Below are positions 30,341-47,482 of a DNA stretch of 64,000 nucleotides, one piece after another. Numbering within the stretch: the first letter of the stretch is position 1; the number at the start of each line of letters is the position of its first letter. The notes below the pieces were generated by a model. That model saw only the letters and a list, made by a program, of their open reading frames with translations, had not been told where the DNA came from and made no database searches. This DNA comes from Caldibacillus debilis DSM 16016 (GTDB lineage: Bacteria > Bacillota > Bacilli > Bacillales > Caldibacillaceae): contig NZ_KB912913.1 in NCBI RefSeq assembly GCF_000383875.1, forward strand, positions 62,001-126,000. The letters run 5' to 3'. A program made the position numbers and the translations under genes.

Positions 30341-31822
30341 TTAGATCAGACCTTCGCGGATCGCCTTCGCCACCGCCTCCGTCCGGTTTTTCACGTTCAT
30401 TTTCTGCATGATGGCGGAAACGTAGTCGCGGACCGTATATTCGCTCAAATTCAATTGGACGGCCGCTTCGAAGGTGGACAACCCCTCGGCCAAAAGCTTC
30501 AGGACCTCAATCTCCCTCGGCGAAAAATGCCTCTTTGCCTTTAACGAAATTTCATCCGAATATTTGGCCAAAATCTCGCCGGCGCTTTGGCCGAATTTGA
30601 TCAGCGCATAGACGGTGTTTTGGTCGACGGTGAAGGGTTTGTTCGGTCCCTGGTCGAGGATGGCCGCTCCCAAAAGCTGGCTTTTGGCACTTAAATAGAT
30701 CGGGGCGAGGACGACCGTTTTCAATTGGAAACGGCGGACGTAGCGGTCGGGAAATACCCCCTTTACGTCGGCGATATAAAGGGGCTGGATATATTTTAAT
30801 TTCTTCCTGTAATTGTTTAAAAGTTTTAAGCGGTTATGGACGAGGGGCAGATTTTGAATATCTTCCGTGATGCCGCGAATCGCTTCCGTATCCAGATGCC
30901 ATCCGTAAAGGCCGGCGCCGATCTGTTCGTCGCTGGAATAGGAAAAGATCGCGCACCGTTCGAAGGGCAATAATTCGACAAATCCTCCCGCGATATTTTC
31001 CAGGGCTTCCGTCAGGGAACGGGATCCGATGATTTTTTCGTTGAAAAGAATGACGGCATCTTTCCATTCCTGGGATTCCTTCGTCAGCTGAACGATTTTT
31101 TTGCTGTCTTTGAACATTTGCAGCGAAAACAGGATGAAAGGGAGGATGCGGGATGCGTCTTCCTTCGGCAGGGAGATCAGCAGGGTGCAGTCGTCATGGG
31201 GCACGGGGATCAGGGTGTATTGATCCTTTTCGTTATGATGGAAACGCCGGAGCAGGGTCTCGGAAATGCCGAAAATTGTATCCGCTTCCAAAAAATTTGT
31301 CGATGCGGCGACGGCAGGGTCTTTCGCGAAGATTTTTTCAACGGCGAACCGCTCCCCTTTTTTCCCGATGACGGCGATCGCTTCGATCGGAAGCAGGGTG
31401 GAGGCGACCATGTAGTCCAGGAAGGACTCCAGCGAATGGTTTTGCTGAAATTGCTGCAGGAAGCCTTCTTCATTGATTTTGGAAAACAAATAATGGATGG
31501 CCATATAGTCGTGGTCCGATTGCCGGGCATGCTCCTGGATGACGTTGTGAACCGTATCTTCGAGGAAGGTGACAAAGAAAGGATTGGCGTTCAATGGCCG
31601 GCTTTTGACGTGAAGCTGGGGTTTTTCTTTCTTCCAATGAAACAAACAGTGGGACAAAAAGGCGACGGTTTCTTCCAGCGCTTCCCATTTTTTTGTTCGT
31701 TTTCCCTTGAATTCGGTCAATATCTTTTGCCATTCGCGGAGGATCTCCGCTTCATATTTTTGGATCGTTTCCAGACCCTTTTGATAAACGGCGTTCATTT
31801 GTTCGTTAAGCGTAAAAGGCAT
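30341..31822 (-). CDS. LuxR-type transcriptional regulator with GAF-like domain
   Basis: The 493-residue cytoplasmic regulator has a long helical N-terminal region (about 1-250). A GAF-like sensor domain follows (about 260-410, FVELLPFERCAIFSYSSD to PIYLSAKSQLLGAAIL), then a C-terminal LuxR/NarL helix-turn-helix (about 425-490, FSPREIEVLKLLAEGLSTFEAAVQLNLSEYTVRDYVS). No receiver domain is present, so it should respond to a ligand or another protein. It diverges from the surface-protein block. ATG 31822 is chosen because GAGGAGGGG lies 11 bases upstream. A dyad at 32047 is a candidate binding site. Confidence 0.88.
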   Translation of the reverse strand: MPFTLNEQMNAVYQKGLETIQKYEAEILREWQKILTEFKGKRTKKWEALEETVAFLSHCLFHWKKEKPQLHVKSRPLNANPFFVTFLEDTVHNVIQEHARQSDHDYMAIHYLFSKINEEGFLQQFQQNHSLESFLDYMVASTLLPIEAIAVIGKKGERFAVEKIFAKDPAVAASTNFLEADTIFGISETLLRRFHHNEKDQYTLIPVPHDDCTLLISLPKEDASRILPFILFSLQMFKDSKKIVQLTKESQEWKDAVILFNEKIIGSRSLTEALENIAGGFVELLPFERCAIFSYSSDEQIGAGLYGWHLDTEAIRGITEDIQNLPLVHNRLKLLNNYRKKLKYIQPLYIADVKGVFPDRYVRRFQLKTVVLAPIYLSAKSQLLGAAILDQGPNKPFTVDQNTVYALIKFGQSAGEILAKYSDEISLKAKRHFSPREIEVLKLLAEGLSTFEAAVQLNLSEYTVRDYVSAIMQKMNVKNRTEAVAKAIREGLI

Positions 31823-32046
31823 GGATCCGCTCACCCCTCCTCATCCTTTTTCGGCCCTCCATTCCGGCGCGAAAAAAGCCGGTTTCCTTTCCCCGGAAAA
31901 GTTCTCCGCATTTCCGGCAACCATAATTATATCAATATTTAATAAAATTTCAATAAATAAAAAGAACAATAATTCATTATAATATTCCAATATTCAGAAA
32001 ACAGAACCCCGTACGTTTGTCGGATGGATTCGTGAATAGGTACACT

Positions 32047-32066
32047 ATTCCTATTTTTATAGGAAT
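32047..32066. promoter_or_regulatory. 20-bp dyad, candidate LuxR-type operator
   Basis: ATTCCTAT (32047-32054) and ATAGGAAT (32059-32066) form a perfect dyad with a four-base centre. Its core is repeated almost exactly at 35931. The size suits a LuxR/NarL-type regulator, and the regulator gene is the divergent neighbour. Confidence 0.55.
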
Positions 32067-32150
32067 TGGTAATATACAGATATCTTTTTAAACTTATAAA
32101 TGAACCGGTAAAAATGGATACGCTTTCAAAAAATTCTGCCCGGAGGTGAC

Positions 32151-32252
32151 ATGGAAAGAGGAGGTCCATCTATTCGCAACTCTGTTTTAAAAAATTTAAA
32201 GGAGGGATTATTATTCGTGAGTTCATTCGCAAAACTGCGATCATTTTGTTAG
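32151..32252 (+). CDS. Possible 33-codon leader ORF overlapping the surface-protein start
   Basis: ATG 32151 follows an excellent GGAGGTGAC ribosome-binding site and opens a 33-codon frame ending in TAG at 32250-32252. That is 39 bases inside the next gene in a different phase. The peptide resembles no family. It could be a coupling leader, or the relic of a start region. Confidence 0.35.
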   Translation: MERGGPSIRNSVLKNLKEGLLFVSSFAKLRSFC

Positions 32253-34351
32253 TAATTCCCCTTTTGTTGTTGTTTATGAACAAAGGTTACGAAGTTCATG
32301 CAGTAAAACAATCGACGTCAGTCCCTTATGTATGTATTTCAAATGTGCCTTTTATAGGGGAAATGAAGTTAAATATGCAGGTCAAAGTTACTGCTACTCT
32401 CCCAGATTTTGTGACTCCAGGAGCAGAATTCGCTTTGGAAGATTCTTTTTCGGAAGTTACATTTGGTAAAGATGAAGTTCCCTTATTAAATCTCGCTGTA
32501 AACCCTATTAAGGGTGAAGTACAAAAATTTCACTTAGAACTCGAAAATGCAACGAGCACAGATGGAAAAAATTTTGTTAATGTTGCGGAAGGTGGATTGA
32601 CCATCCCTGAAACCCCTTTTGCTTCGACCGATCCATCGGTTTCTTTCCGTGTTCCTGCTGATGGGGGAATTGACGTCAATTTGAAAGCAGGTAATGAAAC
32701 CGGTTCAATTATTATTAAAGCAGGAGAAATCGAAACATTATTAAATGGAAATTTGTTTGGAAATATTCACGCAACGTGTAATCCTGGGATTTATAATAAG
32801 GACACTGATGAAATAGAAGAAGTGGATGCAACGTTAAACGTCATCCCGATTCAAGAACCGACACCTGCAGACACCACGCCGCCCGTAATCACGCTGAAAG
32901 GGGATAATCCGCTGTATCTCAACGTGGGCGATGAGTTCGTCGATCCGGGCGCCACGGCCACGGACGATGTGGACGGGGACTTGACGGAACAGATCGTCGT
33001 CACCGGCAGCGTGGATACATCGAAGCCGGGCGAGTACATCTTGACTTACACGGTCTCCGATTCGGCGGGCAACGAGGCCACCGAAACAAGGACGGTCATC
33101 GTCAGGGAAGCCCAGGAACCGGACACCACGCCTCCCGTAATCACGCTGAAAGGGGATAATCCGCTGTATCTCAACGTGGGCGATGAATTCGTCGACCCGG
33201 GCGCCACGGCCACGGACGATGTGGACGGGGACTTGACGGAACAGATCGTCGTCACCGGCAGCGTGGATACATCGAAGCCGGGCGAATACACCCTGACCTA
33301 CACGGTCTCCGATTCGGCGGGCAACGAGGCCACCGCAACAAGGACGGTCATCGTCAGGGAAGCCCAGGAACCGGACACCACGCCGCCCGTAATCACCCTG
33401 AAAGGGGATAATCCGCTGTATCTCAACGTGGGCGATGAGTTCGTCGATCCGGGCGCCACGGCCACGGACGATGTGGACGGGGACTTGACGGAACAGATCG
33501 TCGTCACCGGCAGCGTGGACACGTCGAAGCCGGGCGAGTACATCTTGACTTACACGGTCTCCGATTCGGCGGGCAATACGGCCTCCGTCACCCGGACGGT
33601 GATCGTCCAGGAAAAGGAAGAAGAGCAACCGCCTGCCGGGGGAAGCTGGTATTACGGGGAAGGGGCCCCGGATGAAGACTTGGGCAGCACGGGCGACCTA
33701 TATTTGGACATCGCGAGCGGTGATGTGTATGTGAAGCAGGAAAACGGCTGGGTCCTTGCCTTCAACATGATCGGCGGCGACGGTTCGAAGATCTTCACCG
33801 GCACTGGCGCCCCCGCGGCCGAATTGGGCAAAGCCGGCGATTACTATCTCGATACGTCCGCCTACGATCTTTATCTGAAGGACGAATCGGGATGGAAACT
33901 GATCGGCAATCTCAAAGGGGCAAAGGGCGATGACGGCACCTCATGGCATGTCGGAGAAGGGAAACCCGACAGCTCCCTGGGACGCCCGGGAGATTTCTAT
34001 ATTGATGCGAAAACCGGCGATTTGTATATCAAAGATTCCGAGAACGGCTGGGTCTTCCTTCTCAGCCTGAAAGGATCGGACGAACCGGGCGGCGGCAATC
34101 CGGGCGATGACGAACCGCAAGGCGGAAATGACGATGAGCAAAATAACGGCGGCCCGTCCAATGGCAATGCCGGAAACAACGGCAGCGGCGGGAACGATAA
34201 CGGCGGAGCGGATAACGGTGAAAACCAAGGCGGATCCGGGAATCCGTTGCCCGATACCGCAACGAAGGAACCGTTGCTCCTGTCCTTAGGGTTGCTGCTT
34301 ACCCTGCTGGGCGGAGCCGGATGGCTGCTCCGAAGAAGGGTTTTCCAGTAA
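32213..34351 (+). CDS. LPXTG-type cell-wall protein with DUF5011-like repeats
   Basis: An exported protein of about 712 residues: signal peptide (REFIRKTAIILLVIPLLLLF), an N-terminal domain of about 190 residues resembling actinobacterial DUF6801 (YVCISNVPFIGEMKL to ATCNPGIYN, two Cys), three near-identical 84-residue DUF5011-like Ig repeats, three modules of the pattern GxGxPxxxxGxxGDxYxDxxxxDxYxK with GW, a Gly/Asn-rich wall spacer, and an LPDTA sorting signal with hydrophobic segment and RRR tail. No ATG, GTG or TTG suits the signal peptide; ATT at 32213 lies six bases after AAAGGAGGG. The first 640 bases are far more AT-rich than the rest. Confidence 0.85.
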   Translation: MREFIRKTAIILLVIPLLLLFMNKGYEVHAVKQSTSVPYVCISNVPFIGEMKLNMQVKVTATLPDFVTPGAEFALEDSFSEVTFGKDEVPLLNLAVNPIKGEVQKFHLELENATSTDGKNFVNVAEGGLTIPETPFASTDPSVSFRVPADGGIDVNLKAGNETGSIIIKAGEIETLLNGNLFGNIHATCNPGIYNKDTDEIEEVDATLNVIPIQEPTPADTTPPVITLKGDNPLYLNVGDEFVDPGATATDDVDGDLTEQIVVTGSVDTSKPGEYILTYTVSDSAGNEATETRTVIVREAQEPDTTPPVITLKGDNPLYLNVGDEFVDPGATATDDVDGDLTEQIVVTGSVDTSKPGEYTLTYTVSDSAGNEATATRTVIVREAQEPDTTPPVITLKGDNPLYLNVGDEFVDPGATATDDVDGDLTEQIVVTGSVDTSKPGEYILTYTVSDSAGNTASVTRTVIVQEKEEEQPPAGGSWYYGEGAPDEDLGSTGDLYLDIASGDVYVKQENGWVLAFNMIGGDGSKIFTGTGAPAAELGKAGDYYLDTSAYDLYLKDESGWKLIGNLKGAKGDDGTSWHVGEGKPDSSLGRPGDFYIDAKTGDLYIKDSENGWVFLLSLKGSDEPGGGNPGDDEPQGGNDDEQNNGGPSNGNAGNNGSGGNDNGGADNGENQGGSGNPLPDTATKEPLLLSLGLLLTLLGGAGWLLRRRVFQ
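32870..33625 (+). repeat. Three tandem 252-bp repeats
   Basis: Units begin at 32870, 33122 and 33374 and each encodes one 84-residue Ig-like domain starting DTTPPVITLKGDNPLY. They differ at only a few positions, which points to recent duplication or ongoing homogenisation. Confidence 0.92.
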
Positions 34352-34410
34352 ACGCTTCCGTTCCGCGCAATGCCCGTTAAGACGGGATTTGCGGAAAAAG
34401 GGAATTTCAA

Positions 34411-34456
34411 ATGGGAGGGACTCCTTTCACCGGGAGCCTTCTCCATTTTTCTTTTT
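34411..34456 (+). terminator. Likely terminator between the two anchored proteins
   Basis: ATGGGAGGGACTCC (34411-34424) pairs with the stretch ending in CTCCAT (34445) with several G-U pairs, followed by an interrupted T tract. Confidence 0.6.
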
Positions 34457-34481
34457 AAAAAAAATTACAGGGGGGATCGGT

Positions 34482-35924
34482 ATGGTTCGTTTCCATAAAA
34501 AATTGATCCGTTTCCTCAGCCTTTTCCTCATTTTGTTCCTGCTTTCCCCGCAGCATCATCTTAAGCCGGCGGCGGCCGGCAAAAACCCCGTTTACTATGT
34601 CGCCCTGGGCGATTCTTTGGCGGCGGGTTACCAAAATGACGGAACGAAAACGGGAAAGGGCTATCCCTATTTTATCCAGAAAGGGTTGGCGGAAAAGGGT
34701 TATTCCGTCGAATTGGTCAATGCCGGCGTGGGAGGGTACACCACGGATGATGTCCTTCAGCAACTGATGCAGGATGCCGGCGGAATCCTGGGAAGCATAC
34801 AACAGGCGGATTTCATTACGATCGACGCCGGCGCCAACGACCTGTTAAAGGCGATCGACGTTACGAAGATCAACCCGAATGATCCGGAGCAATTGCAGCA
34901 GGCGATGAATGCCGCCTTGGCGGTCCTTCAGCGGGTGGAAAGCAACATGAAAACCATTTTGGCGAAATTGAAAGAACGGAATCAAACGGCGGACATTTAT
35001 GTCATGGGCTATTACAATGCCCTTCCCTATTTGGAAAATATGCAATCATTGGTCGTCCCGATCATCCAGCTGCTGAATCAAAAAATCGAAAACGCCGCCG
35101 GCGAATATGGCGCGGCCTTCATTCCCACCTTCGACCTGTTCGCGGGACGATATCCGGAATATTTGCCGAATCCGAACGACATCCATCCGAACGAAGCGGG
35201 ATACCAGGCGATCGCCGCCCGTTTCCTGGAAAGGATTTGGCCGAATCTTCCCCCCGCGGAAAAGGTCCCGGTTTGGTTTTCCGGCGAAGGGACCCCCGCT
35301 CCCGGCCTTGGCGAAGAAAACGACCGCTATCTGGACACCGGGGCGCTCGATGTTTATGCAAAGACGGGCGATGGCTGGGTGAAGACCGGCAATTTGAAGG
35401 AGCAGGGGAACGGGGCGTTGCTGAAAGGGAAAGGGGAACCGGCCAAGGAGGAAGGAAAAATCGGCGATTTCTACTTCGATGAGGCTTCCCAAACCCTGTA
35501 TGTAAAAGCCGATGAAGAAGTTTGGCTCAAACTCCCCGATCTCCGCCATATGCCCGGCGGTGTTCCCGGTCCCGGCGATGGGGACGGGGGAGACGGGGAC
35601 GATCAGAATCCGGGCGATACGGATCCGGGAAAGGACGGGAACAACGGACAGGATGACGGGCGGGGTAATGCCGGAAGACCGGACGGCGGACAGGATCAAA
35701 ATCCGGCGGATCCGAACGGGCCCAATCCGCACGGCGGCCAAGGGCATGAAGATGCGGGAGACGCCGGCGGGGGCGCGCAACAGGACGCCCAGCCCTCCGA
35801 CGACACGGGGAAGACCCTTCCCGATACGGGAACGGCCGATCCCGGACGGGCGCTGATCGGCCTTCTGTTCATGGCCGCGGGGCTCGCGTTCTTCTTGGCG
35901 GGAAGAAAAATCCCGTCCCCGTAA
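34482..35924 (+). CDS. Cell-wall-anchored SGNH/GDSL hydrolase
   Basis: The 480-residue protein has a signal peptide (about 1-33) and an SGNH esterase/lipase domain (about 38-258). The catalytic Ser is in ALGDSLAAGY, the oxyanion Gly in GVGGYTTDD, Asn in DAGANDL, and the Asp-His pair in NDIHPNEAGY. Two modules of the GEGTPxxGLGxENDRYLD type follow, shared with the previous protein, then a Gly/Asp/Asn-rich spacer and an LPDTG sorting signal. It probably de-esterifies a surface glycan or lipid. The start is ATG 34482 behind GGGGGG. Confidence 0.92.
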   Translation: MVRFHKKLIRFLSLFLILFLLSPQHHLKPAAAGKNPVYYVALGDSLAAGYQNDGTKTGKGYPYFIQKGLAEKGYSVELVNAGVGGYTTDDVLQQLMQDAGGILGSIQQADFITIDAGANDLLKAIDVTKINPNDPEQLQQAMNAALAVLQRVESNMKTILAKLKERNQTADIYVMGYYNALPYLENMQSLVVPIIQLLNQKIENAAGEYGAAFIPTFDLFAGRYPEYLPNPNDIHPNEAGYQAIAARFLERIWPNLPPAEKVPVWFSGEGTPAPGLGEENDRYLDTGALDVYAKTGDGWVKTGNLKEQGNGALLKGKGEPAKEEGKIGDFYFDEASQTLYVKADEEVWLKLPDLRHMPGGVPGPGDGDGGDGDDQNPGDTDPGKDGNNGQDDGRGNAGRPDGGQDQNPADPNGPNPHGGQGHEDAGDAGGGAQQDAQPSDDTGKTLPDTGTADPGRALIGLLFMAAGLAFFLAGRKIPSP

Positions 35925-35930
35925 AAATCC

Positions 35931-35974
35931 CCTATTTTTGTAGGATAGGTTTTTCGGTGTTTTTTCTTTAGAAT
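35931..35974 (+). promoter_or_regulatory. Second copy of the 15-bp dyad with a possible -10 element
   Basis: CCTATTTTTGTAGGA (35931-35945) differs at one base from 32050-32064. TAGAAT (35969-35974) may be the -10 element, which would place the dyad at activator distance. Confidence 0.5.
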
Positions 35975-36068
35975 AAATAGAGGAATATAAAAATTTTCAA
36001 TCTTTTGGAAATATCGCCGCCGAACAAGAAGCTGCACAGGCCCGTACCTGGGGAAAGGGGGGAAGGGA

Positions 36069-36869
36069 GTGGAGATGGAAAGAAAGGTTGTCGGGCGGAC
36101 AAGCGGAAAAAAATTTCTCGCGGCGCTCTTGACCGGACTGGTCTTTTTCGGGGTAATTATCGGCGCCTTCGGGTTTACGGGCACCTTTTTCGCCATGCCG
36201 CTGGGCGGAATGGGCGATTTTTACGTCACCTTTGACAGGCTGGAGGGGACCGGGTTTGAATTAACTCCCCACATGGGGGAAACGGGGAACGCCGACCAGG
36301 TGCCCCTGGTGAGAAACCGGATCGGTTCGGCTGTCGTTGAAAACTTGCGGATTTATAAAGACATCAAGCTGCCGGCCGGGAAATGGATCCGGATCAACAT
36401 TCAAACGGAACGTCCGGCAAAGATTGAAGGTTTGATCCAGGATGCCCGATTTGTCGATGCGGACATTCAATTCCACGACTTGGCCGTGAAGCAGAAAAAC
36501 ACGACCGGAAGCGGCGAAGAGACGGCCTACGGGCAAAATTGGACGCAGAATGCCGAATCGGTAACCATCACGGGCGGGAAAATCGTAACGGATTATTTGT
36601 TCCAAAACATGGTTTCGCTGCAGAATGCCGACATATGGATCGAAAGCATCGACGGGCCTGATCTTTCCGACGATGAAAGCGGTAACACCGGCGGCGCGGG
36701 AAGCGGCCGGAACGGGGGGCCGCCGGGAGGGGAGATTCCCGGAAGCGGCAAACTTCCGGACACGGCGAAAAATCTGTTTTTCCCGCTGATGGCCGGAACG
36801 GCGGTCATCATGATTGCCCTTTTGCTTTTCTACGGAAGGCGGAAGGGGAAAGTTTTGGAAAAATCATAA
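36069..36869 (+). CDS. DUF6230-like exported protein with LPDTA sorting signal
   Basis: The 266-residue protein has an N-terminal membrane segment (about 15-38) followed by a beta-rich domain (FDRLEGTGFELTPHMGETGNADQVPLVRN to TDYLFQNMVSLQNADIWIES). It resembles the DUF6230 family known mainly from actinomycetes, where it neighbours DUF6114 genes. A short Gly-rich spacer and LPDTA plus hydrophobic segment and basic tail indicate sortase anchoring. GTG 36069 aligns with the paralogue's start; ATG 36075 is an alternative. The function is unknown. Confidence 0.82.
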   Translation: MEMERKVVGRTSGKKFLAALLTGLVFFGVIIGAFGFTGTFFAMPLGGMGDFYVTFDRLEGTGFELTPHMGETGNADQVPLVRNRIGSAVVENLRIYKDIKLPAGKWIRINIQTERPAKIEGLIQDARFVDADIQFHDLAVKQKNTTGSGEETAYGQNWTQNAESVTITGGKIVTDYLFQNMVSLQNADIWIESIDGPDLSDDESGNTGGAGSGRNGGPPGGEIPGSGKLPDTAKNLFFPLMAGTAVIMIALLLFYGRRKGKVLEKS

Positions 36870-36933
36870 CCGGATCCGGCCTGCCGAAGGGCCGGAGCGG
36901 TGTCCATGAAAATTTACAATTGGGGTGAATGGT

Positions 36934-37533
36934 ATGGAAATGGGTCGTGACCAAAAGTTGACGGTTGGCCGCGTTTGGAAAAAGAAATTTTTCATCGCCC
37001 TCTTCACCGGATTTTTCTCCCTGTTCCTGTTGATCGCCGCTTTCGGGTTTACAGGGAGCGCCTTGGCGCTGCCCCTCGGGGGCATCGGCGATTTCATCGT
37101 CGAATTTGACGAATTGCAAGGTTCGGATTTCGAGCTCCTGCCGCACATGGGAGAGACGGGGAATGCCGACCAGTCCCCGATGGTGAGAAACAAGATGGGA
37201 GAAGCGAAGATTAAAGGACTCCACATCTATAAAGATTTAAAAATGCCCACCGGCCAATGGGTAAGATTTCATGTCCGCGCCGAAGGGGAAACCACCATCA
37301 AAGGCCTGATCCAGGATGCGAGATTCATCCATGCCAACTTGAGTTTCGAAGGGCTTTCCATCGTGGAAAAAAATACGGAGAACTTTGCGGAAAACTGGAC
37401 GCAGAGCGCCAAAAAAATCACCATTACCGATGCGAAGCTGATTACCGACTATTTGTTCCAGTCGATGGTTTCCTTGAAAGGGGCAAAGATTTCCACCGAA
37501 CTGATCGATCAGCCGGAAATCATCGAACAATGA
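36934..37533 (+). CDS. DUF6230-like exported protein without sorting signal
   Basis: This 199-residue paralogue of the previous protein shares MEMxR, the GETGNADQxPxVRN block, the GLIQDARF segment, the ENWTQSA block and TDYLFQSMVSL. It stops before the spacer and has no sorting motif, so it stays membrane-attached by its N-terminal helix or is released. The start is ATG 36934, six bases after GGGGTG. It lies 64 bases after its paralogue and 30 before the DUF6114-like gene. Confidence 0.83.
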   Translation: MEMGRDQKLTVGRVWKKKFFIALFTGFFSLFLLIAAFGFTGSALALPLGGIGDFIVEFDELQGSDFELLPHMGETGNADQSPMVRNKMGEAKIKGLHIYKDLKMPTGQWVRFHVRAEGETTIKGLIQDARFIHANLSFEGLSIVEKNTENFAENWTQSAKKITITDAKLITDYLFQSMVSLKGAKISTELIDQPEIIEQ

Positions 37534-37563
37534 TGCCTCCCAAAGACGGGAAGGGGGATCTGA

Positions 37564-38067
37564 ATGAATAGAAGAGAAAAAAGAAGATTGAAAAGGGAAG
37601 AAAAGCTGCGGAAGGCCTATGAAAGATTGGCGGAGGGCGGGAGATTCGCCCGCTGGAAAAACGAAAGGCCTTTTTGGGGCGGCGTTCTTTCCATTTTATC
37701 CGCCCTCGTGATCCTGTACATCCCGCTGCATTTGTACGCCATCGCCTTCATTCCCGGGACCTTCGTATTCATCGGCTTCCTTTTTGGGGGACTGCTGCTG
37801 ATCCTCGGCATCTTTTCCTTGATTTACCCCCAATTTTCAACCGTTTTCGGGGTGATTGTCATTTTTCTTTCCGTCCTCTCCATCATGGGGGCGTTAGGCG
37901 GTTTTCTGATCGGAACGATCCTCGGGATTGTTTCCGGCTCCTTGCTGGTCGGATGGGAAAGGCATGAAGTCGACCTTTCCGGTTTCGGGCCGGGCGCCGG
38001 CGGCAGCCGGAAGGGAGAACCTGCCCCCTCCGTCCCGGACGCCGGCACGGGATCGCTGCAGGCGTGA
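37564..38067 (+). CDS. DUF6114-like membrane protein
   Basis: The 167-residue protein has a very basic N-terminus (RREKRRLKREEKLRK), the sequence RWKNERPFWGG, then four hydrophobic segments ending in GALGGFLIGTILGIVSGSLLVGW. This is the layout of actinobacterial DUF6114 proteins, which are encoded next to DUF6230 genes. The role is unknown; it may hold the DUF6230-like proteins in the membrane. The tail is Gly/Pro-rich. Confidence 0.82.
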   Translation: MNRREKRRLKREEKLRKAYERLAEGGRFARWKNERPFWGGVLSILSALVILYIPLHLYAIAFIPGTFVFIGFLFGGLLLILGIFSLIYPQFSTVFGVIVIFLSVLSIMGALGGFLIGTILGIVSGSLLVGWERHEVDLSGFGPGAGGSRKGEPAPSVPDAGTGSLQA

Positions 38068-38100
38068 AGAACAGAAAATCAGGAAAACAGGTGAATTTCG

Positions 38101-39261
38101 ATGAAGAAACGTTTCCATAAACGTAGGATTCTGCTGTTCCTTTTTGCCGTCTCCTTCCTCTTGTCCATCTCTCTTGATTTCCCGGTCAATGCGGATGACC
38201 GGCCGGAACAGGGGGAATCCGGCGGCGGCTTTACCGTTACGGCCGACAAAGTGGAAGGGGCGATGGATTTACTCGGGGCGCTGACGGGGAAGATCGACAT
38301 CCAAGAAGGGAATATTTACGGATTGACCATTGCAAAAACCTTGCAAAAAAAGGGGGATCGGGAACCCTTTGTCATCCAAATCCGTTCCGCCGGAATCGTC
38401 TCCGTGAAAAATTTGAAGGGGGAAACCCACGGCGGGACCCTGCCTTCCTTTACGGGTTTCTGCCAGCCGAGCAAAGCGGGATGGATCTGCCTGGAAAACG
38501 TGGTCATGACGGTGACCAGCCAATCCGCCGAAGGGATCGTTTTGCCCGACGCCCGCATCACGTCCTGCTACGAATCCGAATGCCACAGACAGGCGGCGAT
38601 GAAGCATGCGGGGGAAAATATGGCCGAACAAATACGGAAAAGCCAGGCGGATCTTGCGGCCCTTTCCCGCGGGCTGGAAGACGATCTGCATCAGGCGCAG
38701 GATCTGGAAAAGGCGTTGGCGGAATCTTCCGCCAGGCTGGATGAGGTGCTGAAAGCAGGGAAGGCGGATGAATTGGCGGTTTTGCTTGCCGAAATCGAAA
38801 AGAGCTTGACATCCGATCCGGGGGAAGAAGATGGCGGGCAGGGAACGGGAGAAAAACCGCCGGAGCCGCCGATCGGTGAAGCGGAAAAACTGCTGCGGGC
38901 ATTGGAAGAAGACCATACATGGCTGAAGGAAAAAACCGAAGAATTGGAAACCGCCCTAACCGGTATCAAGGGGCGGCTGGAAAAGGCGGAAAGCACCTTG
39001 GCCGCATTAAAACAAACCGGAAAACTTTCCCCGGGAGCCCAAGATCCGGCCGGTCCTTCTTCCGGCCAGACGGCGAAGGATGCAGGGAACAGCGGATTGC
39101 TTGGGGCCGAAAACCGATGGAAGGCGTTGAAGGATAAATGGGCTTCCTTGGACATGCAGTTTCGGTCGTTCAAGGAAAAATGGGCGGAATTCGACCGGAC
39201 ATTCACCGGGCTTCGGAAAAGATGGGAGCAAGTGGAACAGGCATTCGAAGCGGAATCTTAA
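38101..39261 (+). CDS. Secreted coiled-coil protein with DUF6230-like N-terminal region
   Basis: The 386-residue protein has a signal peptide (about 1-31) and a beta-rich domain (about 45-160) whose FTVTADKVEG and IYGLTIAKTL segments recall the two preceding proteins. It contains four Cys that may form disulfides (FCQPSKAGWIC and CYESEC). Two coiled-coil regions follow (about 165-230 and 265-310), and a Trp-rich helical end with repeating WxxL/F-K-KW spacing. No anchor is seen. It closes the surface block and is followed by a terminator. Confidence 0.78.
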   Translation: MKKRFHKRRILLFLFAVSFLLSISLDFPVNADDRPEQGESGGGFTVTADKVEGAMDLLGALTGKIDIQEGNIYGLTIAKTLQKKGDREPFVIQIRSAGIVSVKNLKGETHGGTLPSFTGFCQPSKAGWICLENVVMTVTSQSAEGIVLPDARITSCYESECHRQAAMKHAGENMAEQIRKSQADLAALSRGLEDDLHQAQDLEKALAESSARLDEVLKAGKADELAVLLAEIEKSLTSDPGEEDGGQGTGEKPPEPPIGEAEKLLRALEEDHTWLKEKTEELETALTGIKGRLEKAESTLAALKQTGKLSPGAQDPAGPSSGQTAKDAGNSGLLGAENRWKALKDKWASLDMQFRSFKEKWAEFDRTFTGLRKRWEQVEQAFEAES

Positions 39262-39804: not shown

Positions 39805-40149
39805 ATGACGGAAATTGGAGAAATCTTTCAAAGGATCGGCGGAAAATTGAAAGCGGATCCATCCCTGACAAAAGGGCTTGCCGCCGTCTATCAATTCCAA
39901 TTCCACGATGACGGCTCGGTTTTCCAGCTGATCCTGAACGGAGAAAACAGCCGGATCGAAAAAAAGGAAGCGGAATCTCCCCAATGCACGCTCGTGATGA
40001 CGAAGGAAGATTTCATCCGAATGACGGAGGGGAATTTAAACGGAACCAAGGCGTTCATGAGCGGCCGCTTGAAAATCAAAGGGGACATGGGCCTCGCCCT
40101 GAAACTGCAGGATTTGTTCGCCTCTTTCCGGAAGGCGGCCAACGGATGA
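39805..40149 (+). CDS. SCP2 sterol-carrier-domain protein, first copy
   Basis: The 114-residue protein is a single SCP2 domain, a small lipid-binding fold with a hydrophobic tunnel. The C-terminal signature AFMSGRLKIKGDMGLALKLQ is typical. It is expected to bind acyl-CoA or another lipid and hand it to enzymes. It precedes the two acyl-CoA dehydrogenase genes by 34 bases. A paralogue occurs at 45890. Confidence 0.9.
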   Translation: MTEIGEIFQRIGGKLKADPSLTKGLAAVYQFQFHDDGSVFQLILNGENSRIEKKEAESPQCTLVMTKEDFIRMTEGNLNGTKAFMSGRLKIKGDMGLALKLQDLFASFRKAANG

Positions 40150-40183
40150 GACCCGGATATGATGCGATGGGGAGGAACTGCCG

Positions 40184-41332
40184 TTGATCTCTTTTCAACC
40201 GACCGAAGAGCAAAGGGCGTTCGCGGAAATGGCGAAACAAGTGGCCGTGGAAAGGATCCGGCCGCAGGCAAAGGCTTTTGAAAAGGCGGGTCAAATCCCC
40301 GGAAGTTTCATTGCCGAACTGGAGGAACTCGGCTTTTTGGCCATGGAGCTGCCGGCGGAATGGCACGGCCTGGAACTTCCTTTGGCGACCCAGTCCCTCA
40401 TCTGGAAAGGCCTCGCCTACGGCGATCTTGCCGTGGCGCAAAGCCTTCCCGGCGCCGGGGACGCCGCCTCGGTCCTCCGTTTCCTGCCGGATCTGGAAAA
40501 ATTAAGGAGGGTCAAAGAACAGTTCGTTGCCGGAAAGGGGAAGACGATCGCCTTCATCGACGCCGGAAGCGGCCCGGAATATCCGGGGAGCCCGCTGCGG
40601 CTGGAAAAAAGGGGGAAGGGGTACCTTCTCGACGGAAGATCGGCACCGGTCAGGCTGGCCGCCTTCAGCGATTTTCTCATGGTTGCGGCGGCGGATGCAT
40701 CCGGTGAAGAGTTGCTGCTGTTCCTGGAGGAAGGGGATTCATGGGAGGCGGAAGGAGGAAACGGCCGTTTGGGGCTGTCAACCGCCGGGATCGCCTCAGT
40801 CGTCTTCCGGGAGGCGGAGATCGGCGAAGGGCAAATTTTGGCGAAGGGAAGGGAAGCCCGCGAGCTCCTCGAAAAAGCAAGGACGCGGATCCGGATCCTC
40901 GAAGCCGCGAAGGAAACCGGGCTGATGGAGGCGGCGCTCGACTACGCCACGGCGTATACCGCGGAAAGGAAGGCGTTCGGGCAGGAAATCGCCAAATTCC
41001 AAGGAGTTTCCTTCCGGATCGCCGATATGGCGATCGAGTTAAGGGCGGCGGAACTCCTCGTCCTGGAAAGCGCCATGAAAGCGGAGGAAGATCCCGCCCG
41101 CGGGCAAAGCCTTGCGAATCGCGCCCTGTCCAGGGCCCACCGGGCGCTCCGATATATCACCGATTCCGCCGTGCAGCTTCTGGGCGGGCACGGATACGTC
41201 CAAGAATATCCGGTGGAAAAATGGATGCGGGATGCCCAGGCCCAGGTGATGCTGTACGGCAGGGAACGGGAGCTTCTGTTGGAGCGGGGCGAACATCTCA
41301 TCGCCGGAGACAAGGGGGTGGCCGTTTCATGA
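40184..41332 (+). CDS. Acyl-CoA dehydrogenase-like subunit lacking the catalytic Glu
   Basis: The 382-residue protein has the acyl-CoA dehydrogenase fold. Its C-terminal domain has the FAD-contacting RKAFGQEIAKFQ motif and QLLGGHGYVQEYP. The middle domain lacks the usual LTEPxAGSD flavin motif, and the position of the catalytic Glu (normally Y/F-E-G-T) reads L-Y-G-R. On its own it should be inactive. The next gene lacks the complementary parts, so the two probably form one heteromeric enzyme. The start is TTG 40184 behind GGGGAGGAA, and the stop overlaps the next ATG. Confidence 0.88.
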   Translation: MISFQPTEEQRAFAEMAKQVAVERIRPQAKAFEKAGQIPGSFIAELEELGFLAMELPAEWHGLELPLATQSLIWKGLAYGDLAVAQSLPGAGDAASVLRFLPDLEKLRRVKEQFVAGKGKTIAFIDAGSGPEYPGSPLRLEKRGKGYLLDGRSAPVRLAAFSDFLMVAAADASGEELLLFLEEGDSWEAEGGNGRLGLSTAGIASVVFREAEIGEGQILAKGREARELLEKARTRIRILEAAKETGLMEAALDYATAYTAERKAFGQEIAKFQGVSFRIADMAIELRAAELLVLESAMKAEEDPARGQSLANRALSRAHRALRYITDSAVQLLGGHGYVQEYPVEKWMRDAQAQVMLYGRERELLLERGEHLIAGDKGVAVS

Positions 41333-42531
41333 TTTCCTTCGAATTGTCGGAACGCCAGAAACAGATGCAGGAATTGGCCCATTGGTTTGCCGAACACGAA
41401 ATCCGGCCCATCGCCATGGAGGCGGAGCGGTTAAAACAAGTCCCCGGCGATTGGCTGGAAAAGGTGAACAAAATGGGGATCCATTTAAACCCGTCTTCTT
41501 TTGCGGGAGGCAGGGGAAAAAGCGGGGGTACGAAAAAAGAGAACGAGGCGAACCGGATGGGGGTGATTGCCATGGAGGAGCTGGCCTGGGGGGATGCGGC
41601 CGTAACGTTGTCCCTCCCCGGGCCGGGGCTGGGCGGACCGCCCATCCAGACGAGCGGAACGGACGAACAAAAGGAGCGGTTTCTCTCCATCTTTACCGCC
41701 GATGAACCCCGCTGGGGCGCCTGCGCCTTGACCGAACCGGAAGCGGGATCGGACGCTTCCGCCATCCGGACGACGGCGCGGAAGACGGAAGGCGGGTATA
41801 TTTTGAACGGACAAAAAATATTTATTACCAACGGCGCCCGGGCCTCCTGGGTGGTCGTGTTCGCCACGGTGGATCCCGGGCTGGGAAGGCTGGGGCAGCG
41901 GGCGTTCGTCGTCGAAAAGGGGACGAAGGGGTTCAGCGCACCGAAGATCGTGGAAAAAATGGGGCTGCGCGCCAACGAAACCGCCGAGCTGCTGTTTGAA
42001 GACTGTTTTGTCCCCGAGGAAAACCTGCTCGGGGGAGAAGCGCTTTACGAAAGGAAGGCGGCGAAAACGGCGGGCTTTCAAGTGGCGATGAAAACTTTCG
42101 ACAGCACCCGGCCGATCGTCGCCGCCATGGCCGTCGGCATCGCCCGGGCCGCCTTTGAATATACCCTCGATTTGGTAAAACGGGAATTTCCGAAGCAAGG
42201 GAAATTTTATCGGCTGGCGGCCGAGCTGCTCGCCGAGGCCGAACAGGATATCGCCGCGGCCCGGCTGCTGACATGGGAAGCGGCCTGGAAGGCGGATCTC
42301 GGGATGGAAAACGCAAAAGAAGCCGCCATGTGCAAGGCCTTTGCAGGGAAAATGGCCCTGGCCGTCTGCGCGAAATGCCTGGAATTGTTGGGGCCGGCGG
42401 GGCTTCAGGATCACCCGGTGGAAAAATGGTACCGGGACGTGAAAGTGTTCGATATTTTTGAAGGGACCAACGAAATCCAGCATCTGGTCATCGCCCGGCG
42501 GCAATACGCCCCTTACCGAATCCGCGTCTGA
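41329..42531 (+). CDS. Acyl-CoA dehydrogenase-like catalytic subunit
   Basis: The 400-residue protein has the flavin motif ALTEPEAGSDASAI, the KIFITNGARA segment and the catalytic Glu in DIFEGTNEIQHL. It lacks the R-x-x-F-G...Q motif (here VKREFPKQGKFYRL) by which a neighbouring subunit normally completes the FAD site. That motif is present in the preceding gene product, whose stop codon overlaps this start (ATGA). Together they resemble the split enzymes of mycobacteria. The substrate is unknown. Confidence 0.9.
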   Translation: MISFELSERQKQMQELAHWFAEHEIRPIAMEAERLKQVPGDWLEKVNKMGIHLNPSSFAGGRGKSGGTKKENEANRMGVIAMEELAWGDAAVTLSLPGPGLGGPPIQTSGTDEQKERFLSIFTADEPRWGACALTEPEAGSDASAIRTTARKTEGGYILNGQKIFITNGARASWVVVFATVDPGLGRLGQRAFVVEKGTKGFSAPKIVEKMGLRANETAELLFEDCFVPEENLLGGEALYERKAAKTAGFQVAMKTFDSTRPIVAAMAVGIARAAFEYTLDLVKREFPKQGKFYRLAAELLAEAEQDIAAARLLTWEAAWKADLGMENAKEAAMCKAFAGKMALAVCAKCLELLGPAGLQDHPVEKWYRDVKVFDIFEGTNEIQHLVIARRQYAPYRIRV

Positions 42532-42839
42532 TCGGTTTTGCGTTCGAAAAACCCGGTTTTGAAAATCAAGGGGGGCGGGCAATGCGGAAAGGGGCAGCGG
42601 ATCCCGCAAAGGAAACGGAATGGGCAGGAAGCATCGTTAGCGCACCTTCGGCCGGATCCGGAACCGCTGTATTAGGGAGGAACCGCGTCCTGCGCAAGGG
42701 AACCTTGTTTCTGTGCATCCGGTGCAAGTAACGCCATTTAAACCGGCGGATAACGGACGCCAAGGCATGCGTGTCGTGCCGAATAGCTTCGGAAATCCGC
42801 CGCATCGACTTGCCCGCCGCCCGTGAAAGGAGGAAAAAC
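42532..42839. other. Gap between acyl-CoA dehydrogenase and enoyl-CoA hydratase genes
   Basis: About 300 bases without a convincing gene and without a clear terminator. Read-through into the hydratase gene remains possible. Confidence 0.5.
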
Positions 42840-43628
42840 GTGTCCTATCAAACGCTCGAGATCCGAAAACGGGAGAAAGGGGTTGCTTGGATGATCATCA
42901 ACAACCCTCCTGTCAACACCATTACCGAAACGTTGATGAACGAACTGGAGGACGCCGCCGGCCGGCTGGCCGACGATGACGCCGTCCGCGTCCTCGTTAT
43001 CGCCTCGGCCCATCCGAAAATCTTCCTTGCCGGGGCCGATTTAAAGGCGATGATCGAAGACGGCGCGGCCCTTGCCGGGCAGGAGAACGGAATCGAAAAG
43101 GGCAGCGCGAGGATGCAGCGCTGTTTCCAAAAAATTGCCGAATTGCCGAAGCCGGTCATCGCCGCCATCAACGGCCATGCCTTGGGCGGAGGCTGCGAGC
43201 TCGCCTTGGCCTGCGATTTCCGCTTCATGGGGAAGGGAAAGATCGGCTTGACGGAAGTTTCCCTCGGGATCATCCCCGGAGCGGGGGGCACCCAGCGGCT
43301 GACCAAATTGCTGGGGAGGGCGAAGGCGACGGAACTGATCTTCACCGCCAAACGCCTGGAGGCGCAGGATGCCGAACGGATCGGCCTCATCCACCGGGCG
43401 GTGGAACCGGACCGGCTGGAAGAGGAAACGGAGGCGTTTGCCGAAGAATTGGCGGAAGGCGCCGTAAAAGCCATGGGTTTGGCGAAACGGGCGATAGGGG
43501 CGGCGGATCTTCCTTTGGAAGAGGGATTGGCGGCGGAGGCGAAGGCCTTTGCCGAAACCTTTCGGACGGAAGAACCGGCCATCGGATTGTCCGCCTTTTT
43601 CAATAAGGAGAAACCGCGGTTTATCTAG
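42840..43628 (+). CDS. Enoyl-CoA hydratase/isomerase family protein
   Basis: The 262-residue crotonase-fold enzyme hydrates trans-2-enoyl-CoA. Oxyanion-hole segments are FLAGADLKAM and HALGGGCELALACDFRF; the catalytic Glu region is LTEVSLGIIPGAGGTQRL. The start is GTG 42840 with AAAGGAGG six bases upstream. It carries out the second step of the beta-oxidation set encoded here. Confidence 0.93.
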   Translation: MSYQTLEIRKREKGVAWMIINNPPVNTITETLMNELEDAAGRLADDDAVRVLVIASAHPKIFLAGADLKAMIEDGAALAGQENGIEKGSARMQRCFQKIAELPKPVIAAINGHALGGGCELALACDFRFMGKGKIGLTEVSLGIIPGAGGTQRLTKLLGRAKATELIFTAKRLEAQDAERIGLIHRAVEPDRLEEETEAFAEELAEGAVKAMGLAKRAIGAADLPLEEGLAAEAKAFAETFRTEEPAIGLSAFFNKEKPRFI

Positions 43629-43663
43629 CCGGACACAAATGATATTCGGAAGAAGGTGGAAAC

Positions 43664-44506
43664 ATGTCTTCATGGAATGAGCTGCTAAAGGGAAGGGTTG
43701 CGGTTGTAACCGGCGCCTCCAGGGGAATCGGCCGGGCGACGGCCCTCGCCCTGGCGGAAGCCGGTGCCGATGTGGTCATAACCGATATCCTGCTGGAGTC
43801 GGACGGGGAAAGGGAAAGAACCGCCGAAAAATACGGGCCGATGGCACAAATCATGCAGAGCGCAAATGTCATCTATACGGAAAAAACAGCGAAGGAAATC
43901 CGGGAGATGGGCCGCAGGTCCATCGCCCTCAAGATGGACGTCACCGACAGGGAACAGGTCAAAGCCGTCTTCGCCAAAGTGAAGGAAGAATTCGGGAAGA
44001 TTGACATTTTGGTCAACAACGCCGGAACGCTGGATCATGTGTCCCAGATCGAGGATCAAAACGATGACCTCTGGCAAAGGGACTTAAACGTCAATTTGAC
44101 CGGCACTTACAATTGCACCAAAGCCGTCTGGCCCTACATGAAGGAGCAAAAATACGGAAAGATCGTCAATCTTTCATCGGTGGCGGGAACCCTCGGCGGC
44201 TTCGGACAGGCGAGCTATTCGGCGTCGAAGGGCGGCATTTTAAGCTTTACAAAAAGCATGGCCCTGGAAGGGGCCCGGCACGGCATCAACGTGAACGCCA
44301 TCGTGCCGGGAATCATCGGGACGGAAGCCTTCCAGATGAACAATCCGGCGATGAACGAACGGATGATCAAACGCACCGCCTTCCGGCGGCCGGGCAGGCC
44401 GGAGGACATCGCCAATGCCGTCACCTTTTTGGCGTCGGACAAAGCCGGCTACATTACCGGTATCGGCCTGAACGTTTCCGGAGGCATCGAACTGTTTACC
44501 TTTTAA
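43664..44506 (+). CDS. Short-chain dehydrogenase/reductase, probably 3-hydroxyacyl-CoA dehydrogenase role
   Basis: The 280-residue SDR has the cofactor motif TGASRGIGRA, NNAG, and the catalytic SYSASKGG Tyr-Lys pair. An insertion at about 45-75 (LESDGERERTAEKYGPMAQ) lengthens the segment after the second strand. Situated between hydratase and thiolase, it probably oxidises the 3-hydroxyacyl-CoA, since no classical HAD-type gene is present. An annotation as 3-oxoacyl-ACP reductase would also fit by sequence alone. Confidence 0.88.
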   Translation: MSSWNELLKGRVAVVTGASRGIGRATALALAEAGADVVITDILLESDGERERTAEKYGPMAQIMQSANVIYTEKTAKEIREMGRRSIALKMDVTDREQVKAVFAKVKEEFGKIDILVNNAGTLDHVSQIEDQNDDLWQRDLNVNLTGTYNCTKAVWPYMKEQKYGKIVNLSSVAGTLGGFGQASYSASKGGILSFTKSMALEGARHGINVNAIVPGIIGTEAFQMNNPAMNERMIKRTAFRRPGRPEDIANAVTFLASDKAGYITGIGLNVSGGIELFTF

Positions 44507-44573
44507 AGCCGCCTGCGCAAGCGGACCGTCTCCGGAACCGAAAAACCAATCTCAGAGAAAGGAAGTTGGCCAC

Positions 44574-45704
44574 ATGAGGGAAGTCGTCATTGTCGACGCG
44601 CTGCGAACGGCCATCGGGAAAAAGCGGGGAGCCCTTTCCGGGGTCCATCCCGTCGATTTGCTCGCTCCCGTCCTGAAAGCCCTGGTGGAGCGCAACGGGA
44701 TCGATCCGATGGAAATCGACGACGTCATCGCCGGCTGTGTCACGATGACCGGCGAACAGGGAGGGAATATCGGGAGGATGGCGGTGCTGGCCAGCGGCCT
44801 CCCGGTGGACGTTCCCGCCTATTCCATCAACCGGATGTGCGGATCCAGCCAGCAGGCGATCCACTGCGCCGCCCAAGCGATTTTGGCCGGGGACAGCGAT
44901 ATCGTCATCGCCTGCGGGGTGGAAAGCATGTCCCGGGTGCCGATGGGAAGCGATCTGGGAGATTTCAGCGAGCAGCTTCTGGAAAAATATCAGGTCGTTC
45001 CCCAGGGGATGTCGGCGGAATGGATCGCCCAACACTGGAATTTGTCGAGGACCGAGCTCGATGAATTTTCCCTGGAGAGCCACCGGAAGGCGGCCGAGGC
45101 CACGGACAAAGGCTGGTTCCAACGGGAAATCCTGCCGCTCGCGGCAAACGGGGTGGAAGTAAAAACCGATGAAGGGATCCGCCGCGATACGAGCATGGAA
45201 AAATTGGCGGGGCTTTCCCCCTCCTTCCTTCCGGACTCGGGGGTGATCACCGCCGGCAATTCAAGCCAGATCAGCGACGGGGCAGCCGGGGTATTGCTCA
45301 TGTCGAAGGAAAAGGCGGAAAAGCTCGGGCTGAAACCGAGGGCGAAGATCATCGCGCGGGCGGCCGTCGGCGTGGATCCGGTCATGATGCTGACCGGCGT
45401 CATCCCCGTGACAAGAAAGGTGTTGCAAAGGGCCGGCCTTCGCCTCGAACAGATCGACGTGATCGAAATAAACGAGGCCTTCGCCTCCGTCGTGAAGGCT
45501 TGGGAGCGGGAAATTCATCCCGACATGAAAAAGGTGAATCCCCGCGGTGGTGCCATCGCCCTCGGCCATCCTTTAGGGGCGAGCGGGGCGAGGATTTTAA
45601 CGACGTTGCTCCATGCGCTGGAGGACATGGACGGCAGATACGGCCTTCAGGTGATGTGCATCGGGTTCGGCATGGCGACGGGAACGGTCATCGAACGATT
45701 ATAA
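44574..45704 (+). CDS. Thiolase family acetyl-CoA acyltransferase
   Basis: The 376-residue thiolase has the nucleophilic Cys in NRMCGSSQQAIH, the His in GGAIALGHPLGASGA and the second Cys in MCIGFGMATG. It cleaves 3-ketoacyl-CoA with CoA, ending the beta-oxidation turn. An AAAGGAAG ribosome-binding site precedes the ATG. A small SCP2 gene follows after a hairpin-containing gap. Confidence 0.93.
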   Translation: MREVVIVDALRTAIGKKRGALSGVHPVDLLAPVLKALVERNGIDPMEIDDVIAGCVTMTGEQGGNIGRMAVLASGLPVDVPAYSINRMCGSSQQAIHCAAQAILAGDSDIVIACGVESMSRVPMGSDLGDFSEQLLEKYQVVPQGMSAEWIAQHWNLSRTELDEFSLESHRKAAEATDKGWFQREILPLAANGVEVKTDEGIRRDTSMEKLAGLSPSFLPDSGVITAGNSSQISDGAAGVLLMSKEKAEKLGLKPRAKIIARAAVGVDPVMMLTGVIPVTRKVLQRAGLRLEQIDVIEINEAFASVVKAWEREIHPDMKKVNPRGGAIALGHPLGASGARILTTLLHALEDMDGRYGLQVMCIGFGMATGTVIERL

Positions 45705-45838: not shown

Positions 45839-45889
45839 CTTCGCATGAAATCCTTTTCATAACGATCGAAAGGAATGGAGGAGATGGGA

Positions 45890-46237
45890 ATGCGTTTTGC
45901 AAGACCAAGCACCGAGGAAGTGTTCGCCATGATCGATGCCGCCTTGAAACATGATCCGGCCGCGGCGAAGGGAAAAGAAGGGGTCTATCAATTCGACCTG
46001 CAAGGGGAGGATGGCGGCATCTTTCAGATGATCATCGATGAAAACGGCGGCAGGGCGGTGAAAGGGGCCGAGAAAGAACCGAACGTCATCTTGATCCTGG
46101 AAGCGGATCATTTTAAAGACTTGGTGGCTAAGGAATTGAACCCCACCGTCGCCTTCATGAGCGGAAAACTGAAAATTAAAGGGAATATGGGGCTCGCCTT
46201 GAAGCTGCAAACCTTGCTGAATTCGGTCAATTTTTAA
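45890..46237 (+). CDS. SCP2 sterol-carrier-domain protein, second copy
   Basis: This 115-residue SCP2 domain ends AFMSGKLKIKGNMGLALKLQ, almost the same as the first copy, but the first half has diverged. It probably carries another ligand or serves another enzyme. ATG 45890 is preferred because GGAGGAG lies six bases upstream; ATGs at 45875 and 45884 are in frame. It lies downstream of the thiolase gene. Confidence 0.88.
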   Translation: MRFARPSTEEVFAMIDAALKHDPAAAKGKEGVYQFDLQGEDGGIFQMIIDENGGRAVKGAEKEPNVILILEADHFKDLVAKELNPTVAFMSGKLKIKGNMGLALKLQTLLNSVNF

Positions 46238-46533: not shown

Positions 46534-46539
46534 ATGGGA

Positions 46540-47469
46540 ATGGCCCATGATCATTTTCAAACGGTGGAGGGCCAGTTAAATTGGAACGCTCCGATGTTCA
46601 AACTCTATGAGAAGGCAAAAAGGAACGGAAAATGGGATCCGGCGGAGATCGATTTCAGCCGCGACAAAACCGATTATGGGAAGATGACCGATGATGAAAA
46701 AATGGTCATCCTTCCCCTCATCGCATCCTTTGCCGGCGGGGAGGAGGCGGTGACCATCGATATTCTTCCCATGGTTCAGGCGCTGGCGAGGCAAGGGCGG
46801 CTGGAAGACACCCTGTATTTAACGACCTTCATGTTTGACGAGGCGAAACATACGGAACTTTTTTCCCGGTGGCAAAGGGAGATCGGCATCGGCGGCATCA
46901 ATCTTTCAGCCTTTCACGGGGACAGCTACAAACGGATTTTTTACGAGGAGCTGCCGGAGCGGATGGAACGGCTGTATACGGATGATTCCCCGGAAGCAAT
47001 CATCCGGGCGGCGACCATCTACAACATGGTGGTGGAAGGGATTCTGGCGGAGACCGGCTATTATTCGTTCCGGCAAATTTTTAAAAAGGCCGGTTTGTTT
47101 CCGGGGATTTTACGGGGGATCGATTATTTGAACAGGGACGAAGGGCGCCACCTTCATTTCGGGATCTACACGATTCAACGGCTGATCGCCGGCAATGAAA
47201 AAAATTTCCGGCTGTTCATCGGGGATATGGATGAATTGTGGCCCCATGCCTACGGAGTCATCGATTATCTGACGACCTTGTACGAACTGCAGATGGCCCA
47301 GGAGTGGGTGCGGTCGTCCCTCGTCTTTGACGCCGGACTCATGAGGGAATACGCGAAGAAACAGTTTGAGATCCGCAAACGCCAAGTCGAACGGGGGAGA
47401 CGGTACGAAAACGCGGCCGAATTGGATGAAGCATGGGCGAGAGCGGTGGAGCGGAAAACGTCGTTTTAA
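46540..47469 (+). CDS. R2-like ligand-binding oxidase (R2lox)
   Basis: The 309-residue ferritin-like protein has the carboxylate/His ligands of an Mn/Fe cofactor: Glu in GGEEAV, Glu and His in DEAKH, Glu in VVEG, Glu and His in DEGRH. The Val in GEEAV and the Tyr in TIYNMVVE correspond to the pair that forms the Tyr-Val ether cross-link in Geobacillus kaustophilus R2loxI. R2lox proteins bind a long-chain fatty acid near the metal site, and their reaction is not established. The lipid-degradation setting agrees with an acyl substrate. ATG 46540 has AAAGGGG seven bases upstream; ATG 46534 is alternative. Confidence 0.93.
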   Translation: MAHDHFQTVEGQLNWNAPMFKLYEKAKRNGKWDPAEIDFSRDKTDYGKMTDDEKMVILPLIASFAGGEEAVTIDILPMVQALARQGRLEDTLYLTTFMFDEAKHTELFSRWQREIGIGGINLSAFHGDSYKRIFYEELPERMERLYTDDSPEAIIRAATIYNMVVEGILAETGYYSFRQIFKKAGLFPGILRGIDYLNRDEGRHLHFGIYTIQRLIAGNEKNFRLFIGDMDELWPHAYGVIDYLTTLYELQMAQEWVRSSLVFDAGLMREYAKKQFEIRKRQVERGRRYENAAELDEAWARAVERKTSF

Positions 47470-47482
47470 GGGGGATGGGAGA

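Follow-up and report, generated by a model that had tools for sequence, protein, structure and literature searches.

A 64-kb stretch of the genome of Caldibacillus debilis DSM 16016 (contig NZ_KB912913.1, positions 62,001 to 126,000; hereafter the window, with its first letter as position 1) carries at 30341-39261 a regulator gene and, divergent from it, six genes named A to F here, followed by an operon at 39805-49333 (Table 1). The genes lie at or near the places given by an initial annotation, made from the sequence alone, which had also recognized the divergent regulator. It described a surface complex only and missed the catabolic half: the probable hydrocarbon or lipid locus runs on to 49333. 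Pfam searches bore out the families it had proposed for C, D and E: DUF6230 (PF19741) was found in C and D with 31.8 and 30.2 bits, respectively, above the gathering score of 27.5, and DUF6114 (PF19609) in E with 96.6 bits against a gathering score of 27.9. For A, the proposed DUF6801 (PF20611, gathering score 26) had no score reported in the Pfam search of the window's protein, but it was above the cut-off in the A orthologues of loci L014 (4.2e-14, 53.4 bits) and L065 (1e-20, 74.9 bits), whose N-terminal regions align with that of A. Three PF16403 Ig domains were also found in A. B matched PF13472 with 102 bits, which meets the gathering score, and the blocks GDSL, GGY, GAND and DIHP, where GDS, G, GxND and DxxH are expected, are legible in its sequence; orthologues of B were present in L014 and L016. 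Common to A and B is a repeat of about 40 amino acids, GEGxPxxxLGxxGDxYLDxxTGDxYxKxxxGW, with three copies in A and two in B (32246-35924). When D-type and F-type alignments were compared directly as profiles, the match was weak (E 7.8e-4, probability 25). Among the fetched loci, the D profile found F-type proteins in L074 (8e-11), L069 (2e-9), L066 (1e-7) and L055 (2e-7), and the same proteins were found by the F profile. Based on this profile chaining, F is assigned a diverged DUF6230 domain and, behind it, a coiled coil, in line with the relationship suggested at first.

A, B and C end in LPDTA, LPDTG and LPDTA signals, respectively, that of C with a membrane anchor, which makes three sortase substrates; A and B had been recognized earlier, and C is the third. 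As annotated, there was no sortase gene in the window. The genome has one sortase, on another contig, and it belongs to class D (SrtD), the YhcS-like kind that had been suggested for LPDTA. In two Lentibacillus loci (L014 and L016), a SrtD gene lies inside the cassette, between A and B. The LPDTAT of A scored 22.5 bits with the LPxTATN-type signal model (cut-off 32), and the Lentibacillus A orthologues, adjoining SrtD, end in LPDTATN. Because SrtD lies within the Lentibacillus cassettes and the only sortase of the window's genome is of the same class, A, B and C are predicted to be sorted by SrtD. The open reading frame of A was listed from TTG 32246; the frame is open upstream to ATT 32213, which stands behind a AAAGGAGG site. 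Since starting there yields IREFIRKTAIILLVIPLLLL, a normal signal peptide, and the AAAGGAGG site precedes it, ATT 32213 is probably the start of A. ATT is a rare start codon in bacteria (gene A region 32207-32246).

P21 and P16 are membrane-fraction proteins of Geobacillus thermoleovorans B23 that are induced by alkanes (Kato 2009, PMC2676291). Their induction rises with alkane chain length, and they were not induced by palmitic acid, triglycerides (tributyrin, trimyristin) or paraquat, nor in rich broth (PMC2676291). In a search of all fetched loci for the published peptides, those of P21 mapped to the DUF6230 gene directly behind the R2-like ligand-binding oxidase (R2lox) gene in L080 and L089-L091; in L080, L090 and L091, P21-14 and P21-20 were exact and P21-N had one change. 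P16-N, altered at one position, was found in the DUF6230 gene adjoining DUF6114 in L033 and L034. The types bearing these peptides were found by the D profile. Because the published peptides lie in DUF6230 genes, C and D are placed by sequence in the P16/P21 family; alkane induction itself was demonstrated in Geobacillus alone. The label of unknown function can therefore be tied to growth on alkanes.

For a long time, no physiological role was known for R2lox. The R2lox protein of the window scored 372.8 bits with the type I model NF006200 (cut-off 194) and 432 bits with GkR2loxI (4HR0). Alignment to 4HR0 showed that it keeps the Mn/Fe ligands E69, E102, H105, E167, E202 and H205 and the cross-link pair Y162/V72. 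GkR2loxI is reported as an alkane monooxygenase from a cluster that also holds P21 (PMC10867098). Sterol catabolism was considered for the operon, since it contains SCP2 proteins and a thiolase near the steroid-thiolase model, and was rejected because the thiolase missed the cut-off of that model (410 versus 515 bits). Further downstream, at 51469-52606, a 163-aa open reading frame with a partial glycoside phosphorylase domain (SOGP_2nd, 1e-60) is overlapped by the next frame, which has no family; an oligoglucan phosphorylase gene may have been broken or split here.

The gene-order search proposed at first gave a table of 35 loci in which the recurring unit is the regulator, D, E and F; in most of the loci whose flanks were long enough, a regulator homologue diverges from the cassette or flanks it. 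This LuxR/D-E-F unit is a recurring, patchy cassette that is widespread in Bacillales. In a sample of 299 genomes of the order from 116 genera, DUF6114 was above its cut-off in 36 genomes, so the set is patchy in the order, in line with the initial annotation. R2lox type I, counted at E<1e-90 to the R2lox of the window, was found in 13 of the 299. All 13 also had DUF6114, compared with 36/299 overall (Fisher P 1.2e-13), and at the genus level all eight R2lox type I genera were among the 18 of 116 with DUF6114 (P 6.9e-8). The two genes were at most 10 kb apart in 8 of the 13 genomes. The two genes also covary inside genera: g71 has two genomes with both, and its other listed members have neither R2lox type I nor DUF6114. 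R2lox type II was only weakly associated with DUF6114 (10/36). A general role of the cassette in protecting the envelope against hydrophobic or solvent stress, co-regulated with hydrocarbon catabolism but outside it, would agree with the many LuxR/D-E-F cassettes that stand alone without catabolic neighbours, and tolerance is one possible role listed for P16/P21 (PMC2676291). The 13/13 co-occurrence with R2lox type I and the repeated linkage with beta-oxidation genes argue against such a role, which we regard as improbable.

Beta-oxidation genes join the D-E-F unit in L017, L018, L057, L078 and the window, and the P21-type unit of L075 and L078-L081 is accompanied by aldehyde dehydrogenase (ALDH), alcohol dehydrogenase (ADH) and ABC1 genes, in most cases together with R2lox. 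The D-E-F unit is found with A, B and C in Lentibacillus L014 and L016 and with A and C in L065; the window combines both additions, A/B/C and the beta-oxidation operon. The phylum sample included four genomes from a different class (g130) that have DUF6230 and an R2lox with 42-44% identity, and in one of them (L075) R2lox, ADH, ALDH, DUF6230, DUF6114 and ABC1 kinase genes are neighbours. P21-type DUF6230/DUF6114 loci repeatedly have a gene for an ABC1 (UbiB-like) kinase as a neighbour (Table 1); we know of no role of this kinase in alkane use. In L078, the space between R2lox and DUF6230 holds genes for a cytochrome P450 and for a ferredoxin/thioredoxin-reductase-like flavoprotein (L078:11652-13904), possibly as a second hydroxylase or an electron donor for R2lox. 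In Lentibacillus salicampi, the cassette is preceded by a gene resembling fatty acyl-CoA reductases (PF07993; L014:408-1523), which hints at wax or fatty alcohol metabolism there. A weak DUF6230 match was also seen within a 3503-aa open frame from another class of the phylum (L052, G456:C30:18021-18317).

Table 1. Features of the locus in the window, and ABC1 kinase genes in other loci.
Feature	Position	Strand	Basis
GAF + LuxR-type (GerE) transcription regulator	30341..31834	-	Pfam GerE 6.9e-18, GAF 2.8e-5; divergent from cassette
A: exported protein, N-terminal region of DUF6801 type, three Ig-like domains, GEG..GDxYLD repeats, LPDTA signal	32213..34351 (start probable)	+	
B: exported SGNH/GDSL hydrolase, GEG..GDxYLD repeats, LPDTG signal	34389..35924	+	PF13472 6.8e-29, Gram_pos_anchor 8.2e-5
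C: DUF6230 protein (P16/P21 family), C-terminal LPDTA signal	36069..36869	+	PF19741 2.0e-7, alignment
D: DUF6230 protein (P16 type), signal peptide, no sorting signal	36925..37533	+	PF19741 6.2e-7, P16-N-like motif, neighbourhood
E: DUF6114 membrane protein	37564..38067	+	PF19609 1.6e-27, tree
F: exported, DUF6230-related N-terminal domain + coiled coil	38101..39261	+	profile comparisons
SCP2 lipid carrier, first	39805..40149	+	PF02036 2.1e-21
Acyl-CoA dehydrogenase 1	40184..41332	+	family search
Acyl-CoA dehydrogenase 2	41329..42531	+	family search
Enoyl-CoA hydratase	42771..43628	+	family search
3-hydroxyacyl/3-oxoacyl SDR dehydrogenase	43664..44506	+	family search
Acetyl-CoA C-acyltransferase (thiolase)	44574..45704	+	TIGR01930 450.8 bits, above cut-off
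SCP2 lipid carrier, second	45875..46237	+	PF02036 5.4e-22
R2lox, type I	46534..47469	+	NF006200 1.4e-111, above cut-off
FadD11-like acyl-CoA ligase	47366..49333	+	NF038343 1.4e-108, below the model's own cut-off
ABC1 kinase genes	L075:11698-13503, L078:3424-5196, L079:1-1503, L080:380-2182, L081:3382-5136		

When 21 intergenic regions were screened for a conserved site of the regulator, nothing but cre-like sites stood out. Exact cre-like sites were present upstream of D in 4 of the 21 loci (0.035 expected), two of the four being close relatives. This excess suggests catabolite repression in some of the cassettes, which matches the lack of rich-broth induction in the study of Kato. There was no exact cre-like site in the window, where TGGATACGCTTTCA upstream of A has one mismatch.

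In plasmid searches, the window's own D and E retrieved nothing; the only organism found was a haloarchaeon, through a megaplasmid of Natronococcus sp. AD-5 (L122), which carries DUF6230 (1.5e-9) followed by DUF6114 (9.7e-26), both above the cut-offs. Genes for an R2lox-like protein (NF006200 7.1e-30, below the model cut-off), ALDH, acyl-CoA dehydrogenase, acyl-CoA ligase and SDR lie at most 15 kb from the pair, and a third protein in the position of F had no match to the F profile. Since the branch of the L122 protein in the DUF6114 tree is very long, no date or direction of transfer is claimed. The tree also separates a P21-type clade (L073, L075, L078-L081) from the P16-type clade to which the window belongs. 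There, E of the window is placed close to Lentibacillus and Virgibacillus and apart from its family mate G005, the support for the wider group being modest (86/71). This placement and the patchiness within genera such as g6, g28 and g71 are consistent with a history of gain and loss, or of transfer, within Bacillales. GC content at third codon positions was 0.63-0.67 in C-F and 0.67-0.73 in neighbours outside the locus, and the composition of C-F gave no sign of recent import. The initial annotation had read the locus as a surface complex of actinobacterial origin, transferred to Firmicutes and refitted there with sortase anchoring, unlinked to catabolism. The presence of DUF6230, DUF6114 and, in orthologues, DUF6801, the patchy distribution and the separation of E from G005 speak for it. 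From the sequences compared, those of Bacillota and one haloarchaeon, we nevertheless find it very improbable, as the cassette recurs across Bacillales, where alkane-inducible P16/P21 were already known, is linked to catabolic genes, and has its DUF6230-DUF6114 pair in a haloarchaeon as well.

Taken together, A-F are probably the envelope half, for uptake or adhesion, of a locus for alkanes or long-chain hydrophobic molecules, with wall anchoring added, and 39805-49333 would be the enzymatic half. The GAF-LuxR regulator would turn the locus on when a hydrophobic substrate, the presumed ligand of its GAF domain, is sensed. A may attach the cell to oily material and B may release or condition ester lipids or act on surface material; the class D sortase would tether both to the wall. 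The DUF6230 domains, wall-bound in C and membrane-side in D and, on its coiled coil, in F, would transfer hydrophobic molecules across the wall to the membrane protein E. Inside the cell, R2lox would hydroxylate the chain, and the SCP2 proteins, the acyl-CoA ligase and the beta-oxidation enzymes would consume the product; alkanes are the presumed substrate in this organism.

Several results weigh against this interpretation. Among the 36 genomes with DUF6114, 13 had no strong R2lox, and seven genomes from one search had no R2lox beyond a weak NrdB-like match; the cassette hence does not depend on R2lox. The alkane activity of GkR2loxI comes from one paper that used crude lysate, with only a slight loss in the E202A/H205A mutant (PMC10867098). 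With a crude lysate and a small mutant effect, it is likely but not settled that GkR2loxI is an alkane monooxygenase. No ADH or ALDH was found among the scanned neighbours of the window operon, and disruptions of the P16/P21 genes were not obtained (PMC2676291). The AlphaFold2 model of DUF6230 (pLDDT 65.7) has an N-terminal helix and about eight strands; it had no Foldseek match at E<0.001 and reached Z<=3.1 at best in a second structure comparison, and no solved relative of DUF6230 was found by sequence. With no structure match, no fold is claimed and a lipid-binding cavity is hypothetical; the DUF6114 model was poor (pLDDT 57.6). Finally, the SGNH hydrolase B points to an ester substrate rather than an alkane.

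B would indeed suit a locus for ester lipids (wax, sterol or glycerol esters) instead of alkanes, in which B hydrolyses esters at the wall, DUF6230 binds or hydrolyses them, the operon burns the acyl chains and R2lox acts on fatty acids or alcohols. The gene resembling fatty acyl-CoA reductases at the Lentibacillus locus and the occurrence of the cassette without R2lox point the same way. So do the Streptomyces cholesterol esterases, which we take to be DUF6230 proteins; for the Bacillales members, such an enzymatic role would be hypothetical. The N-termini of P16/P21 resemble these esterases, but overall similarity is negligible (PMC2676291). Since, in addition, palmitic acid, tributyrin and trimyristin do not induce P16/P21 (PMC2676291) and most cassettes have no B, an ester-lipid locus is unlikely.

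The locus is real, conserved and functionally interpretable, and its interest lies in the alkane link and not in the mixture of families. To our knowledge, how alkanes enter the cytoplasm of Gram-positive bacteria is largely open. The co-occurrence of R2lox type I with DUF6114 and the haloarchaeal pair make the three genes and the regulator candidates for this uptake step, and a probable role is assigned to Pfam families labelled as of unknown function. We tentatively suggest that DUF6230-DUF6114-F may be a dedicated envelope route for very hydrophobic molecules such as n-alkanes in single-membrane prokaryotes, both Bacillota and haloarchaea, with a through-wall, sortase-anchored extension in this lineage. 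If so, its function in organisms that lack an outer membrane would correspond to that of AlkL/FadL.

The wall-anchored form is new, and the underlying P16/P21-type system is known but little studied. The cassettes of Lentibacillus salicampi and Lentibacillus sp. CBA3610 (L014 and L016) have A, B, C, D, E and F in the same order as the window but carry SrtD between A and B and have no adjoining R2lox or beta-oxidation operon. The alkane cluster GK2769-GK2782 of G. kaustophilus HTA426 (PMC10867098) shares with the window R2lox type I, DUF6230, acyl-CoA dehydrogenase, enoyl-CoA hydratase, thiolase and acyl-CoA ligase. By comparison, the window lacks adjacent ADH, ALDH and ABC1-kinase genes and has two SCP2 genes and wall-anchored proteins; DUF6114 and F are not among the genes discussed for the cluster in the passages of PMC10867098 consulted. 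N-terminal likeness to P16/P21 is reported for the Streptomyces cholesterol esterases (Xiang 2007, as cited in PMC4098958). The P16/P21 proteins of G. thermoleovorans B23 share with the window the DUF6230 domain, the signal peptide, an N-terminal xPLxGxGxF motif and the adjacent DUF6114, and the P21 type lies directly behind R2lox. The window differs in having two P16-type copies, one of them with a sortase signal, and in also carrying A, B and F. A long distance separates the P16 gene GK3040 of G. kaustophilus from its R2lox cluster (GK2771), whereas in the window the P16 type stands next to the R2lox operon.

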